Assembly: GCA_029239365.1 (NCBI GenBank)
Contig: JAQZBA010000006.1
Coordinates: forward strand, 1-36,473
DNA from: Herbinix sp.
Lineage (GTDB): Bacteria; Bacillota; Clostridia; Lachnospirales; Lachnospiraceae
Direction of reading: 5' to 3'
DNA: 36,473 bases
Made by a program: the position numbers and the translations under genes. The notes below the pieces were generated by a model. It was not told where the DNA came from, did no database searches, and was given only the letters and a program-made list of their open reading frames with translations. This document shows, in pieces, positions 26,304 to 31,535 of the stretch. Numbering within the stretch: the first letter of the stretch is position 1; every line of letters begins with the position of its first letter.

Positions 26304-26741
26304 TTACTCTTCTTTCTTCTCGTCCGGATATTTACTACGAAGCCTTTGATTTATATGATCCGCTGTTCTTTTCTCATGATTGAACATGGCTAAGTTGACA
26401 CTGATATATACTGCTGCCACAAGAAATATCATTGATACTACTTGCACTAAATTGGTAGGATCAATCCAATGACATAGGATCGCAACACCCAATACGATAA
26501 CATTAATATAAGTATAATGAAGAACAAGACGTACTTTCATCTGCTTCTTGCTAATCTCTCGTTTTGAATAAAAGAACAATATCCCACAAGAAGTAATGGC
26601 TGACATTATGATTACCTGCCATACTATAGTGATTGGAAAGGTCAAGCCCGGCCAAAAGATGGTAATAAATATCGCTGTGCTAAGGATACTTCCTGATAAG
26701 ACATAAAAAAAGGTCCTTATTATCTTTTTTAACCAATTCAT
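26304..26741 (-). CDS. DUF3021 membrane protein
   Basis: This 145-residue protein has four predicted membrane helices (about 8-32, 36-56, 70-92 and 98-118 from the ATG) and a charged C-terminal tail, as in the DUF3021 family. These proteins are typically encoded right after a LytTR-domain regulator and are thought to act as its membrane partner, possibly as an inhibitor or signal sensor. The ATG at 26741 is preferred over an upstream GTG because that GTG falls in the AGGAGG site, which also overlaps the stop of the LytTR gene. It is the last gene of the four-gene leftward operon. Confidence 0.85.
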   Translation of the reverse strand: MNWLKKIIRTFFYVLSGSILSTAIFITIFWPGLTFPITIVWQVIIMSAITSCGILFFYSKREISKKQMKVRLVLHYTYINVIVLGVAILCHWIDPTNLVQVVSMIFLVAAVYISVNLAMFNHEKRTADHINQRLRSKYPDEKKEE

Positions 26742-26753
26742 ATCTGCCACCTC

Positions 26754-27191
26754 CTACATTCCAAGCTTTTTCTTTAGTTCCGGTACATATTGTCTGGATA
26801 TTACAACCATTTCACCATTGAATAATTGTGCTTCGAACCTCCCTGAATAAGCCGGACTGATACTTTTAATTTTTGATGCGTTTAATATTATAGATTTGGA
26901 GGCACGGAAAAAGTCCGTATTCTTAAAATCCTCTTCAATCTCATACAGCTTCTGTTTTGTTTCATAGACGTTCTGCTTACAATAAAGGAATACTTTATTG
27001 TCCACTCCCTCAAAATAGTATACACTTGCCGGGTCAATCACAATGATGTTACCATCCTTAATTCCCGTCAGCTTCTTCTGTCCTTGTTTCAACTCTGCGA
27101 TCAGCTTCAAGATATTATCATTCAACTCCTTGCAGCGGAAGATAATCTGGTCTTCTTCGCCTGGGCTGCATTCTTCAATAATTATCTTCAT
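26754..27191 (-). CDS. LytTR-domain DNA-binding regulator
   Basis: This 145-residue protein lacks a receiver domain. Residues about 45-145 form a LytTR beta-fold DNA-binding domain: ILVID-type strands around NIIVIDPASVYYFEGVDNKVFLY, then FFRASKSIILNASKI and VVISRQYVPELKKKL. LytTR proteins bind pairs of roughly 9-bp direct repeats. AGGAG lies 5 bases before the ATG. The gene sits 8 bases after the permease and overlaps the ribosome site of the DUF3021 gene, so it is translated from the ABC operon it probably controls. The direct repeats at 29168-29199 are its likely target. Confidence 0.92.
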   Translation of the reverse strand: MKIIIEECSPGEEDQIIFRCKELNDNILKLIAELKQGQKKLTGIKDGNIIVIDPASVYYFEGVDNKVFLYCKQNVYETKQKLYEIEEDFKNTDFFRASKSIILNASKIKSISPAYSGRFEAQLFNGEMVVISRQYVPELKKKLGM

Positions 27192-27199
27192 AGGATCTC

Positions 27200-28111
27200 C
27201 TATCTGCTCATTACATTTCGCTTTCTTTGTAGTAACGCTGCTATTCCTATGAAGATTATACCACTAATTACCAAAAATGCTATCTTAATTGTTGTAGAGA
27301 TCGCCTCTCCCTCATATAAGATTGTAATTCCCATATATTCCTTATAACCATTCATTAACTCTTCTGGACAATTGGTAAAGGTCTTCGCCAGTATATCCTT
27401 TGTTAGCAAGTCACGCATAAAGGAGCAGCCATGTAGCAGCGGAAAGCATTTCAGCACATTTTGCACCCGCTCCGGAAGCATTCCCATAGGAAGATAGATT
27501 CCCGCAATAAATCCCACCAGTGTTCCAATGATCGTACTTAATCCGCCAAATGCACTCTGGCTATGAACAAAGTTAGCAATTAGGAACACCATCGTTGCTG
27601 AGGTAAATACATTTAACACAATATAGAGGAATACCTTGCCAAGTATCGCTATCGGTAACATGATCCCACCTGTAGCCACGATATAAGCTTCTCCGATGAT
27701 AATGGTGAGACTGCACATAATAATTCCCATAGCAATTGCTGCGATAATATAGCTAAACACGAAAATCCAACGACTTACCGGCGCCACATAGAAGCTGGAT
27801 AGTCTTTTCTGAGCTTCATCCTCAACCATAATACCAACCATGGACAGTGTAATCGTGATGGAGTTCACTACTACGATACCTGCTAAAGTCCAAAGCATTA
27901 CAAGCTGCTCTGCATTCGAGCGATCAAGTACCGTATCTCTCTCTCCGCCGTATTCATTCAACAGGTTAAGAACACTATCGGCATTCATCTTGCCGAGGAA
28001 AACCACCATAAGTCCAATAATAATCAACATAGATAATAATGAGAAGAATATATTGGAACGATCTCTGGTATAAACTAATATATTTCGTTTGACTAATCTA
28101 AATAATAACAT
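27200..28111 (-). CDS. ABC-2 type transporter permease
   Basis: This 303-residue integral membrane protein begins MLLFRLVKRNILVYTRDRSN, the usual cytosolic start of ABC-2 permeases, and has about six membrane helices with an extracellular loop near residues 45-75 and another near 220-265. It should pair with the upstream ATPase to export a drug or peptide, as do many LytTR-linked ABC-2 systems. AGGAGG lies 9 bases before the ATG. The ATPase stop is 15 bases upstream. Confidence 0.92.
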   Translation of the reverse strand: MLLFRLVKRNILVYTRDRSNIFFSLLSMLIIIGLMVVFLGKMNADSVLNLLNEYGGERDTVLDRSNAEQLVMLWTLAGIVVVNSITITLSMVGIMVEDEAQKRLSSFYVAPVSRWIFVFSYIIAAIAMGIIMCSLTIIIGEAYIVATGGIMLPIAILGKVFLYIVLNVFTSATMVFLIANFVHSQSAFGGLSTIIGTLVGFIAGIYLPMGMLPERVQNVLKCFPLLHGCSFMRDLLTKDILAKTFTNCPEELMNGYKEYMGITILYEGEAISTTIKIAFLVISGIIFIGIAALLQRKRNVMSR

Positions 28112-28126
28112 TTTATATTACCTCCT

Positions 28127-29035
28127 CTATAAGCTCTTTCCTGTGATATTTAGGAATACATCATCCATGGTTCCTTGGATTAGTTCAAAGGATTTTAGTT
28201 TATCCTTTACTTTGTTCAGTAGCTCTAAGCCGTACATAGAATCCGGGATGATAACTCGGATATGATTACTTCTATTCTCGAAGGAGAGCTTTTCCTCCTG
28301 CAACTGCTTAGCCATCTCATCCTTATCCTCCGGCACCAGCTTCAGGATATCCTGGGCATGCAGCTGCTTCAGTTCGGAAGGTGTTCCATTTGCCACAAGC
28401 TTGCCTGCCTCCATGATGGAGATGTACCCCGCTTTGGCTGCTTCCTCCATGTAGTGTGTTGTCAGGAATACAGTCATACTGTCTTCCTTTCTCAACCTCT
28501 CTACACTCTCCCAAACATTCTGCCTGGTCTGAGGATCCAATCCGGTCGTAGGCTCATCTAGGAATAATAACTCCGGCCGATTCATTAATGCCTTCGCTAT
28601 CTCACAGCGTCTCTTCTGTCCACCGGATAGCTTCCTGAATTGTCTGTTCAACACATCCCCTATATCAAGAATATCACAGACGTAATCAAGATTCTTATGG
28701 ATGGAGCTTGTGCGGCTGTCATAGAGAGATGCTCTTGTAATCAAGTTCTCCTTAATCGTTAACCGGTTATCCAAAGTATTATCCTGGAATACTACCCCGA
28801 TTTTACTACGAATCTTTTGATCCTCTTTTCCTAACTTATATCCACACACATATGCTTCACCTTCGGTACTGCCGAGTAAGGTGCACAGTATATTGATCGT
28901 TGTAGATTTACCAGCTCCATTTACACCGAGAAATCCATAAAGTTGCCCCTTCTTCACCCTGAAGCTGATGTCATCCACTGCTTTTACCTCAGTGAACTGC
29001 TTCCGTAGATTTTTTACTATTATGATATCCTCCAT
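28127..29035 (-). CDS. ABC transporter ATP-binding protein (ABC-2 drug type)
   Basis: This 302-residue cytosolic ATPase has Walker A GVNGAGKST, Q-loop VVFQDN, signature LSGGQKRRCEIAKAL and Walker B LLFLDEPTTGLD, followed by FLTTHYMEEA, the pattern of DrrA/CcmA-type exporters. A C-terminal domain of about 80 residues (VPEDKDEMAKQLQEE onward) is also as in DrrA. The ATG at 29035 has GGGAG 5 bases upstream. A longer in-frame start at 29065 lacks a site. First gene of the operon ATPase-permease-LytTR-DUF3021. Its upstream region holds the candidate LytTR operator. Confidence 0.94.
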   Translation of the reverse strand: MEDIIIVKNLRKQFTEVKAVDDISFRVKKGQLYGFLGVNGAGKSTTINILCTLLGSTEGEAYVCGYKLGKEDQKIRSKIGVVFQDNTLDNRLTIKENLITRASLYDSRTSSIHKNLDYVCDILDIGDVLNRQFRKLSGGQKRRCEIAKALMNRPELLFLDEPTTGLDPQTRQNVWESVERLRKEDSMTVFLTTHYMEEAAKAGYISIMEAGKLVANGTPSELKQLHAQDILKLVPEDKDEMAKQLQEEKLSFENRSNHIRVIIPDSMYGLELLNKVKDKLKSFELIQGTMDDVFLNITGKSL

Positions 29036-29127
29036 ATTACTCCCTACCTTTCTATCTCTTATCATCTTATAATCAGGCTTATTGAGCCTTAATCAATGGC
29101 CAATTCCTTGTGCCCTCTGTTGTTATG

Positions 29128-29156
29128 AGTGTATTCCGGATGGGAAATTAATGCAA
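29128..29156 (-). promoter_or_regulatory. Candidate promoter of the LytTR ABC operon
   Basis: On the minus strand TTGCAT (29156-29151), a 17-base spacer and TACACT (29133-29128) make a weak sigma-A promoter. The direct repeats end 11 bases upstream of the -35, a common activator position. A second, worse candidate is TTGATT (29096-29091) with TATAAG (29071-29066), which has a 19-base spacer. Confidence 0.4.
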
Positions 29157-29167
29157 TAGCATCGGAT

Positions 29168-29199
29168 GTAAGTTGCAATTATGAAAAGGTAAGTTGCAA
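29168..29199. promoter_or_regulatory. Direct-repeat LytTR operator candidate
   Basis: GTAAGTTGCAA occurs twice exactly, at 29168-29178 and 29189-29199. The 21-bp phase is two helical turns, the spacing typical of LytTR regulators such as AgrA and ComE. TAAGTT fits the first six positions of the AgrA-like 9-mer. It lies between the LytTR operon and the divergent DJ-1 operon. Confidence 0.65.
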
Positions 29200-29208
29200 A
29201 AATACAGC

Positions 29209-29237
29209 TTAAGTGAACTCTCAAAACTACCTATAAT
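29209..29237 (+). promoter_or_regulatory. Candidate promoter of the DJ-1 operon
   Basis: TATAAT (29232-29237) is preceded at 17 bases by a poor -35, TTAAGT (29209-29214). A weak -35 just beside the direct repeats (ending 29199) would fit an activated promoter. If used, the leader to the DJ-1 ATG is about 205 bases long. Confidence 0.35.
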
Positions 29238-29286
29238 TTGTAATTATCGTAAATTAGTGGTATCCATTTTCCACTATATCCTTTAT

Positions 29287-29400
29287 GATTAACATAGTGA
29301 GCATAATGCAAGCTTGCTTGTAAGTATGCGATCGGAGTGAACGATCATGAATACGCTCTATATTCATGATATAGTGATTAACGTAGTGAGCATACTGCAA
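29287..29400. repeat. Direct-repeat and hairpin leader before the DJ-1 gene
   Basis: A 25-bp segment at 29287-29311 recurs at 29376-29400 with two mismatches, sharing GATTAAC and TAGTGAGCATA. Between them lie GATCG/CGATC and the perfect stem ATCATGAATA (29344-29353) with TATTCATGAT (29361-29370). The palindrome GCAAGCTTGC lies at 29308-29317. The whole could be a structured 5' leader RNA or an old duplication. Confidence 0.6.
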
Positions 29401-29448
29401 ATTAAAGTTTTCACCCATAAAAGTTGGATTCATAGGAGGGCGAGTCAC

Positions 29449-30021
29449 ATGAAAGTATTGTTGCTATTAGCCAAAGGCTTCGAAACAATGGAGTTTAGCG
29501 TCTTTGTTGATGTGTTGGGATGGGCCAGAAATGACTTTGGATGCCAGATAGAGGTTGATACCTGTGGTTTTCAGAAAGAAGTAATCAGTACCTTTCATAT
29601 TCCGGTACTCGTAGATAAGACTTTAGATGAAATCAATTGCCATGAATATGATGCGCTGGCTATTCCCGGTGGCTTCGAAGAATTCGGCTTCTATGAGGAC
29701 GCCTACGATGAACGGTTTCTCCATCTGATACGGGAATTTGACAGGCAGCATAAGATCATCGCTACCATCTGTGTTGCTGCCTTACCCTTGGGCAAAAGCG
29801 GAGTTCTAAAGAACCGACGGGCAACCACCTATCACCTGAGAGACGGCTACCGTCAAAAGCAATTAGCACAATTTCAAGTTGATGAACCTATCGTAATCGA
29901 TCATAATATTATCACCTCCTACTGTCCTCAGACAGCTCCTGACGTAGCCTTTCAGTTGTTGGAGATGTTAACCTCAACGGACCAGATGGAAGCTGTAAAG
30001 AAAGCGATGGGGTTTAAATGA
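29449..30021 (+). CDS. DJ-1/PfpI family protein
   Basis: This 190-residue cytosolic protein has the flavodoxin-like DJ-1/PfpI fold: KVLLLLAKGFETMEFSVFVDVL at the start (Glu12 in the conserved position), AIPGGFEEFGFYE in the middle and the nucleophile elbow ATICVAAL with Cys108, then TTYHL. Family members act as glyoxalases, deglycases, amidases or chaperones, and the activity here cannot be assigned. It groups with the YajL/ThiJ-like set by length. An upstream in-frame ATG at 29347 has no ribosome site, while AGGAGG precedes the ATG at 29449. Its stop overlaps the next start as ATGA, so the genes are translationally coupled. Confidence 0.88.
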   Translation: MKVLLLLAKGFETMEFSVFVDVLGWARNDFGCQIEVDTCGFQKEVISTFHIPVLVDKTLDEINCHEYDALAIPGGFEEFGFYEDAYDERFLHLIREFDRQHKIIATICVAALPLGKSGVLKNRRATTYHLRDGYRQKQLAQFQVDEPIVIDHNIITSYCPQTAPDVAFQLLEMLTSTDQMEAVKKAMGFK

Positions 30022-30854
30022 CTATGAAGAATCTAATACGACTTACAGATTATTCAATTAATGATATAACTAATATCTTTACAATAGCAGATCGCATATC
30101 ACAAGGTGAATTCAAGGATTTCTTAACAGATAGTACGATATTATTATTCTTTCCTGCTGCGAGTATAAGAACAAGAGTAACCTTTGAAAAAGGAATTCAG
30201 CAACTGGGTGGAAATACGATTCTTTTTCCAAGTGACGCCTTGGACAAAAAGGAAGCTATTAAAGATGTCATCGGCTATCTTAATAATTGGGCCGATGGAA
30301 TTATTGTTCGACATAATGATATTACTAAGCTTGATGAAATGGCAAGGCATTCAACCGTTCCCGTGATTAATGCTATGACCGGCGTCAATCACCCCTGTGA
30401 GGTGCTATCTGATTTATATTCCTTGTCAAAACGAAGAACAGATTATCTGGAGGCAAAGTATTTATTTATCGGTGAAAAGGGAAATATCGGATTAGCCTGG
30501 CAGGAAGCCTCTAAAGTTCTTGGGTTTTCGTTAACACAAAGTTGCCCTGTAGGTTATGAAATGGATCATATCCCGGTAGAGTATGATATTCATAAAGCAG
30601 TTCAGGGTAAGGACATAATTCTAACAGATTCCCTAAGAAAAGAGATGATCAAAGACTTTAATAATTATCAGGTAACGCTTACTTTGCTTGATAAAGCCAA
30701 TCCCAATGTACTTTTTAATCCATGCCCTCCCTTCTTCCGAGGAGAAGAGGTAACAGATGAGGTAATACAAAGCGAATATTTTGTTGGTTATCAATTTAAG
30801 AGTACACTAATAGAGATTCAACAAGCAATTATTATTTATAATATGATGAGCTAA
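30018..30854 (+). CDS. Ornithine carbamoyltransferase-like protein, altered motifs
   Basis: This 278-residue protein has the aspartate/ornithine transcarbamylase fold. The carbamoyl-phosphate motif S-T-R-T-R reads SIRTR (49-53), the HPCQ motif reads HPCE (125-128), and RGEEVTDEV (241-249) is exactly as in ornithine transcarbamylase. However, the ornithine-binding VSMG segment is replaced by SLRKEM (205-210), and the usual HCLP before RGEEV reads NPCPP (234-238). It is also about 40 residues shorter than a normal OTCase. The carbamoyl-phosphate half is largely kept and the second-substrate half is changed, so another acceptor or a non-enzymatic role is likely. It is the middle gene of a trio with DJ-1 and Nudix proteins, and its ATG overlaps the upstream stop. 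Confidence 0.75.
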   Translation: MTMKNLIRLTDYSINDITNIFTIADRISQGEFKDFLTDSTILLFFPAASIRTRVTFEKGIQQLGGNTILFPSDALDKKEAIKDVIGYLNNWADGIIVRHNDITKLDEMARHSTVPVINAMTGVNHPCEVLSDLYSLSKRRTDYLEAKYLFIGEKGNIGLAWQEASKVLGFSLTQSCPVGYEMDHIPVEYDIHKAVQGKDIILTDSLRKEMIKDFNNYQVTLTLLDKANPNVLFNPCPPFFRGEEVTDEVIQSEYFVGYQFKSTLIEIQQAIIIYNMMS

Positions 30855-30870
30855 TATATTGGAGGCTATT

Positions 30871-31383
30871 ATGAAATTAATCAGAACAATAACAGATCAA
30901 GATTTTCTTGCTTCCAACCTCATGTCAGAAGCCAAGCCAAGAGATACGGTAAGAACCTTATTATTTAATGAAGAAGGCAAAATAGCCGTGATGCATGTCT
31001 CCAGATACCAGCTCTATTCCTTTCCTGGCGGAGGTGTTGAATCAGGGGAAAGTCTAGAAGAGGCCCTTAAGAGAGAAATCCTTGAGGAAACCGGCTGTTG
31101 CTGCGAGATTATTCAGGAATTAGGGTATATCAAAGAAAACCGAGGACTCCTGGACTATACTCAACAGTCTTATTATTATGTCACCCAGAAACTCGGTGAA
31201 GCTCAGAAACCAATATTAACAATTACTGAGGTGAATAACGGAACCAGCTATGCTTGGTATGAGATAAACGAAGTAATGAATTTGCTTATGCTAACTGCAC
31301 ATGAAACCCTGCAGCAGAAATACTTACAGGCGAGAGATCTTGCAGCATTGGAGGAGTACCTTACTATTGTAAAAGGGAATTGA
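30871..31383 (+). CDS. Nudix hydrolase
   Basis: This 170-residue cytosolic enzyme has a perfect Nudix box at 54-76: GGVESGE then REILEETGCC, satisfying G-x5-E-x7-RE-U-x-EE-x-G-U. Nudix enzymes cleave nucleoside-diphosphate-linked compounds, and the substrate cannot be read from the sequence. The ATG at 30871 has TTGGAGG 6 bases upstream. A start 12 bases earlier overlaps that site. It is the third gene of the DJ-1 operon, 16 bases after the transcarbamylase-like gene. Its stop codon lies inside the left arm of a perfect 28-bp inverted repeat. Confidence 0.92.
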   Translation: MKLIRTITDQDFLASNLMSEAKPRDTVRTLLFNEEGKIAVMHVSRYQLYSFPGGGVESGESLEEALKREILEETGCCCEIIQELGYIKENRGLLDYTQQSYYYVTQKLGEAQKPILTITEVNNGTSYAWYEINEVMNLLMLTAHETLQQKYLQARDLAALEEYLTIVKGN

Positions 31384-31432
31384 GCCTGTACCAAGAAGAT
31401 ATGGTATCTTCTTGGTACAGGCTCAATTCCCT
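31374..31432. terminator. Perfect 28-bp hairpin overlapping the Nudix stop codon
   Basis: Bases 31374-31401 are the exact reverse complement of 31405-31432 with only a TGG loop. The left arm includes the last codons and TGA of the Nudix gene. On the minus strand a T-run of four follows, so it may chiefly end the convergent histidine kinase transcript. In the plus direction it would block exonuclease at the very end of the reading frame. Confidence 0.85.
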
Positions 31433-31535
31433 CTGTTATATAGAATCCATAATTATTTTTTGATTAGGGTCCTTGAGATTCAGACTGATGAATCAATTAA
31501 TATAAACCTAATCCTATTACTTCTATCCGTTAAAG

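Follow-up and report, generated by a model that had tools for sequence, protein, structure and literature searches.

A conserved direct-repeat operator very probably used for autoregulation by a LytTR-DUF3021 operon of Herbinix sp.

Two-component LytTR activators of the AgrA and ComE type combine a LytTR domain with paired 9-bp direct repeats that precede the -35 element and are spaced by about two helical turns. For the LytTR Regulatory Systems (LRS), a direct-repeat operator arrangement was described by Zou et al. 2018 (PMC6193735), and all of the operators that these authors tabulated lie ahead of the promoter of their own operon, with the motif in one direction. In the ABC transporter-linked systems, the operator of SMU_1070c/1069c reads GCAACTTAG-11 bp-GCAACTTGA and is located 11 bp from the -35 element, and that of lmo0984/0985 reads GCATCTTAG-12 bp-GCATGTTAC and is located 10 bp from it (PMC6193735). 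HdrR was shown to bind and to activate through such repeats (PMC6193735). For the present comparison, we considered as an LRS operator 9-bp direct repeats separated by 11-13 bp and placed ~4-11 bp upstream of the operon's -35 element, and as an LRS a stand-alone LytTR regulator whose gene is directly followed by that of a membrane protein of the DUF3021 or DUF2154 type.

In the stretch of Herbinix sp. DNA analysed here (the window; 36,473 nt), two exact copies of GTAAGTTGCAA are located at 29168-29178 and 29189-29199, 21 bp from start to start and with a gap of 10 bp, as a previous sequence-only reading had noted. The window holds no further exact copies, and the pair occurs only once in the 3.8-Mb genome, where a reversed control pattern gave no matches. 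Read toward the ABC-LytTR-DUF3021 operon, the arrangement corresponds to GCAACTTAC-12 bp-GCAACTTAC, followed by 11 bp to the -35 element. The features of this side are the following:

26304..26750, minus strand: DUF3021 membrane protein, presumed inhibitor of LytTR (Pfam DUF3021, 8.3e-10; several strongly hydrophobic stretches)
26754..27191, minus strand: 145-aa LytTR regulator lacking a receiver domain (Pfam LytTR, 2.6e-24; no Response_reg)
27200..28111, minus strand: ABC-2 permease (Pfam)
28127..29032, minus strand: ABC ATPase, encoded at the head of the LRS operon (Pfam ABC_tran and DrrA1-3_C; start at 29032 inferred from homologues)
29128..29133, minus strand: candidate LytTR-operon -10 element TACACT, with the operator core 34 bp away (at most of the 22 other loci, the distance is 33-34 bp)
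29151..29156, minus strand: candidate LytTR-operon -35 element TTGCAT, which shares bases with the conserved TATTGC(A) (most homologues have TATTGC or a like sequence equally far from the repeats)
29168..29178, minus strand: operator half-site nearer to the LytTR operon, with its core GCAACTTAC at 29176-29168 (exact; conserved in homologues)
29189..29199, minus strand: operator half-site farther from the LytTR operon, with its core GCAACTTAC at 29197-29189 and 12 bp between the cores (exact; conserved in homologues)

The gene content of this operon is that of an LRS. Pfam LytTR is the sole match of the regulator, which has no receiver domain and is therefore not a response regulator; in this it differs from the AgrA/ComE-type activators, with which it shares the LytTR domain and the paired 9-bp direct repeats upstream of the -35 element. 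The gene of the membrane protein, of the DUF3021 type, lies directly downstream and begins 3 bp past the LytTR gene, whereas the ABC genes open the operon. For the ATPase, homology favours the start at 29032 over a further in-frame one upstream, at 29065. The 9-bp direct repeats, 12 bp apart and 11 bp from TTGCAT, also fall within the LRS operator definition. The locus has in common with the SMU_1070c/1069c LRS the LytTR and small membrane proteins, the link to an ABC transporter and a near-identical repeat (GCAACTTAG/GCAACTTGA), separated in both cases by 11 bp from the -35 element, whereas the spacer is 11 bp there and 12 bp here. With the Listeria monocytogenes lmo0984-lmo0987 LRS (PMC6193735, Table 3), a system of a different species, it shares the repeat (GCATCTTAG-12 bp-GCATGTTAC there, 10 bp from the -35 element) and an operon that joins LytTR and membrane protein genes to those of an ABC transporter.

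The family Lachnospiraceae includes both Herbinix and Anaerocolumna. With the published LRS motif, narrowed to GCAWCTTA(C/G), i.e., to the variants nearest this repeat, we scored 260 bp ahead of each of 25 homologous ATPase genes, namely that of the window, those of 12 near-relative loci and those of 12 loci belonging to other genera in the family. Toward the LytTR operon, the best match reached 14/18 or more at 23 of the 25 loci, and in the opposite direction at none (0/25); in shuffled sequences, scores of at least 14 appeared in 1.6% and of at least 16 in 0.04%. At most of the homologous loci, TATTGC or a similar sequence is located 9-10 bp past the repeat, and the -10 element lies at 33-34 bp. 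Two loci (L036 and L164) have no clear operator, and two more (L171 and L173) present a scored match that no -10 element follows at the usual distance. Among the more distant LytTR-DUF3021 paralogues, those with a scoring match carry the site in the direction of the operon, with spacers of 11 or 12 bp. The sequence-only reading had interpreted the repeats as a LytTR operator and had called for a search of relatives; repeat, spacing and -35 distance as in the published LRS, together with the single orientation across the operons, strongly support this interpretation. The comparison provides an operator model for LytTR systems of the DUF3021 type in this clostridial family, 5′-GCAWCTTAC-12 (or 11) bp-GCAWCTTAC-3′ followed by TATTGC and by a -10 element at 33-34 bp.

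A functionless chance duplication is an extremely improbable origin of the repeat pair. Counted singly, 11-mers with up to two mismatches are not overrepresented in the window (6 found versus 9.5 expected by chance), a point in favor of chance that leaves the signal to be carried by the pair and its conservation. Nevertheless, the pair keeps its sequence, its spacing, its orientation and its distance from the promoter across genera, and the chance repeat was rejected based on this conservation in homologous operons. Given the conservation in homologues and the likeness to published LRS, autoregulation by LytTR is strongly supported and would represent a known kind of switch. Judged from the comparison, the operator belongs to the LytTR operon. 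We consider it very probable that the LRS operon regulates itself through the repeat pair as its operator, with LytTR as autoactivator and DUF3021 as a membrane-bound brake. Binding, activation and inhibition by the membrane protein are modelled here on the S. mutans LRS. Two 145-aa LytTR molecules would occupy the tandem 9-bp sites, which are spaced by two helical turns and lie just upstream of the weak -35 element, and would recruit RNA polymerase to the promoter of the ABC ATPase-permease-LytTR-DUF3021 operon. The DUF3021 membrane protein would keep the regulator inactive until an envelope signal frees it, and the released LytTR would then exert positive feedback on the exporter.

Genome-wide, with 12-bp spacing and up to two mismatches, only the window's site was recovered, and with 11-bp spacing a single site, located upstream of a LytTR paralogue on contig C284. 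An operator regulon in this genome was thus rejected, as at up to two mismatches there are no sites beyond the operon's own and that of the C284 paralogue. In another genome (G030), a 17/18 operator match (L082, G030:C175:327-356) is followed after 15 bp by an ORF whose translation resembles NADH:flavin oxidoreductase, a possible extra operator target there. Additionally, three tandem LytTR half-sites with spacers of 12 and 11 bp are located upstream of the ATPase gene at one locus (L124, in G003).

On the other side of the repeats lies a divergent operon headed by a DJ-1 gene, with these features:

29209..29237, plus strand: candidate DJ-1 operon promoter (-35 element TTAAGT at 29209-29214, -10 element TATAAT at 29232-29237)
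29449-30021, plus strand: DJ-1 (Pfam)
30018-30854, plus strand: ornithine-carbamoyltransferase-like (OTC-like) carbamoyltransferase (Pfam)
30859-31383, plus strand: NUDIX protein (Pfam)

The start of DJ-1 was placed at 29449 and not at the upstream ATG 29347, based on homologues and a Shine-Dalgarno-like AGGAGGG. After the NUDIX gene come a histidine kinase and a response regulator, both on the minus strand. The repeats are 11 bp from the candidate -35 element on the LytTR side and 9 bp from that on the DJ-1 side; TTGCAT and TTAAGT each match the consensus at 3 of 6 positions. Both the weakness of the -35 elements and these distances agree with the sequence-only reading. The same reading had placed the operator symmetrically between the two operons. 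This is true of distance alone, the 9-bp core lying exactly 34 bp from the -10 element on both sides, because a direct repeat has direction: the repeats are oriented toward the LytTR operon only and away from DJ-1.

The locus of the closest relative (L032), whose LytTR is 90% identical, keeps the operator, the LytTR promoter and the far-side flank up to AGCTTAAGT (window plus strand); the DJ-1 block is absent there, and the histidine kinase is directly upstream. Homology between the window and this locus breaks near 29214, and therefore the candidate DJ-1 -35 element would lie in old shared sequence and the -10 element in the inserted block. The DJ-1/carbamoyltransferase/NUDIX block (~29215-31487) is missing from this position in 12 of 12 other genus-group loci (L032-L041, L124 and L125). 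Based on these comparisons, the block was most likely inserted next to the operator in this lineage, and the neighbourhood of operator and DJ-1 genes is, on the same grounds, a recent arrangement of one lineage. The junction may instead reflect an assembly error, judged from the sequence alone, but the copies of a repeat found in the DJ-1 leader are mostly only ~80-85% alike, and the right end of the block rejoins the expected kinase gene.

The sequence-only reading had further proposed that one regulator might co-control the ABC exporter and DJ-1 operons, which the comparison does not support. Activation of the DJ-1/carbamoyltransferase/NUDIX promoter by LytTR at the single repeat pair would be an addition to autoregulation and compatible with it; we regard it as possible, albeit unlikely. 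The perfect TATAAT, at an exactly mirrored 34 bp that is compatible with activation, follows a poor -35 element, and no promoter-like site besides this candidate passed the scan of the plus strand at 29200-29450. A perfect -10 element within 30-37 bp was present in 1.1% of composition shuffles, in a test chosen after the sequence was seen. Nevertheless, the repeats face away from DJ-1, and the published table lists LRS operators in one motif direction (PMC6193735). No second, properly oriented site is evident on the DJ-1 side, where the best reverse match (12/18) is at background level. Moreover, the arrangement is not conserved in relatives: the block is present at this position only in this genome and absent from all other loci examined, and the four DJ-1 orthologues (68-75% identical) at other loci of G003, G005, G024 and G032 all lack the site. 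Co-control is thus conceivable because the DJ-1 -10 element sits at exactly the mirrored distance, and less likely because of the orientation and the missing conservation.

Bound at the operator, LytTR could also activate its own operon and at the same time repress or disturb the DJ-1 promoter. With the site inverted and only 9 bp from the candidate DJ-1 -35 element, interference is no less natural than activation, and a possible precedent for a dual effect of one LytTR-family protein is S. mutans ComE, reportedly described by Kreth et al. in 2007 as both an activator of mutacin and a repressor of CSP production. However, the operator overlaps neither the -35 nor the -10 candidate of DJ-1, and we find such repression distinctly unlikely. 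Beside repression, the alternative to co-activation is that bound LytTR is indifferent for DJ-1. It also appears unlikely that the inserted DJ-1 operon took its promoter from the outer side of the operator, one unidirectional direct repeat then driving two divergent operons over a mirrored 34 bp. If it did, LRS operators could work in both orientations and recruit new targets by insertion; the locus offers a natural test case for an operator acting backwards on a neighbouring operon.

The DJ-1 block itself presents several minor features. Eight relatives of the carbamoyltransferase gene from other genera adjoin neither DJ-1, NUDIX nor this LytTR gene, and a conserved DJ-1/carbamoyltransferase/NUDIX trio was rejected, as the 8 carbamoyltransferase and 4 DJ-1 loci sampled lack the other members. 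The carbamoyltransferase (30018-30854) is short (278 aa) and scores below every NCBIfam equivalog cut-off; its relatives occur in 22 of 396 other family genomes sampled, mostly at 50-60% identity and scattered over genera. A structured RNA leader for DJ-1 was rejected, with no meaningful Rfam match and folding not better than that of shuffles (z -0.83). The leader contains, at 29291-29400, a copy of an interspersed repeat with one full unit and part of the next (period ~88 bp), each unit having three small hairpin-like stretches and no Rfam family match; this repeat has 34 matches in this genome, dozens in some relatives and none in many others. Between the NUDIX and histidine kinase genes, a hairpin with a 20-bp stem (31380-31426) is probably a terminator, and it gives weak below-threshold matches to animal microRNA families. 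Elsewhere in the window, positions 1098-1213 hold a tandem array of 6.2 copies of the 19-bp unit TTCCTAAGTATCTTGATTA.
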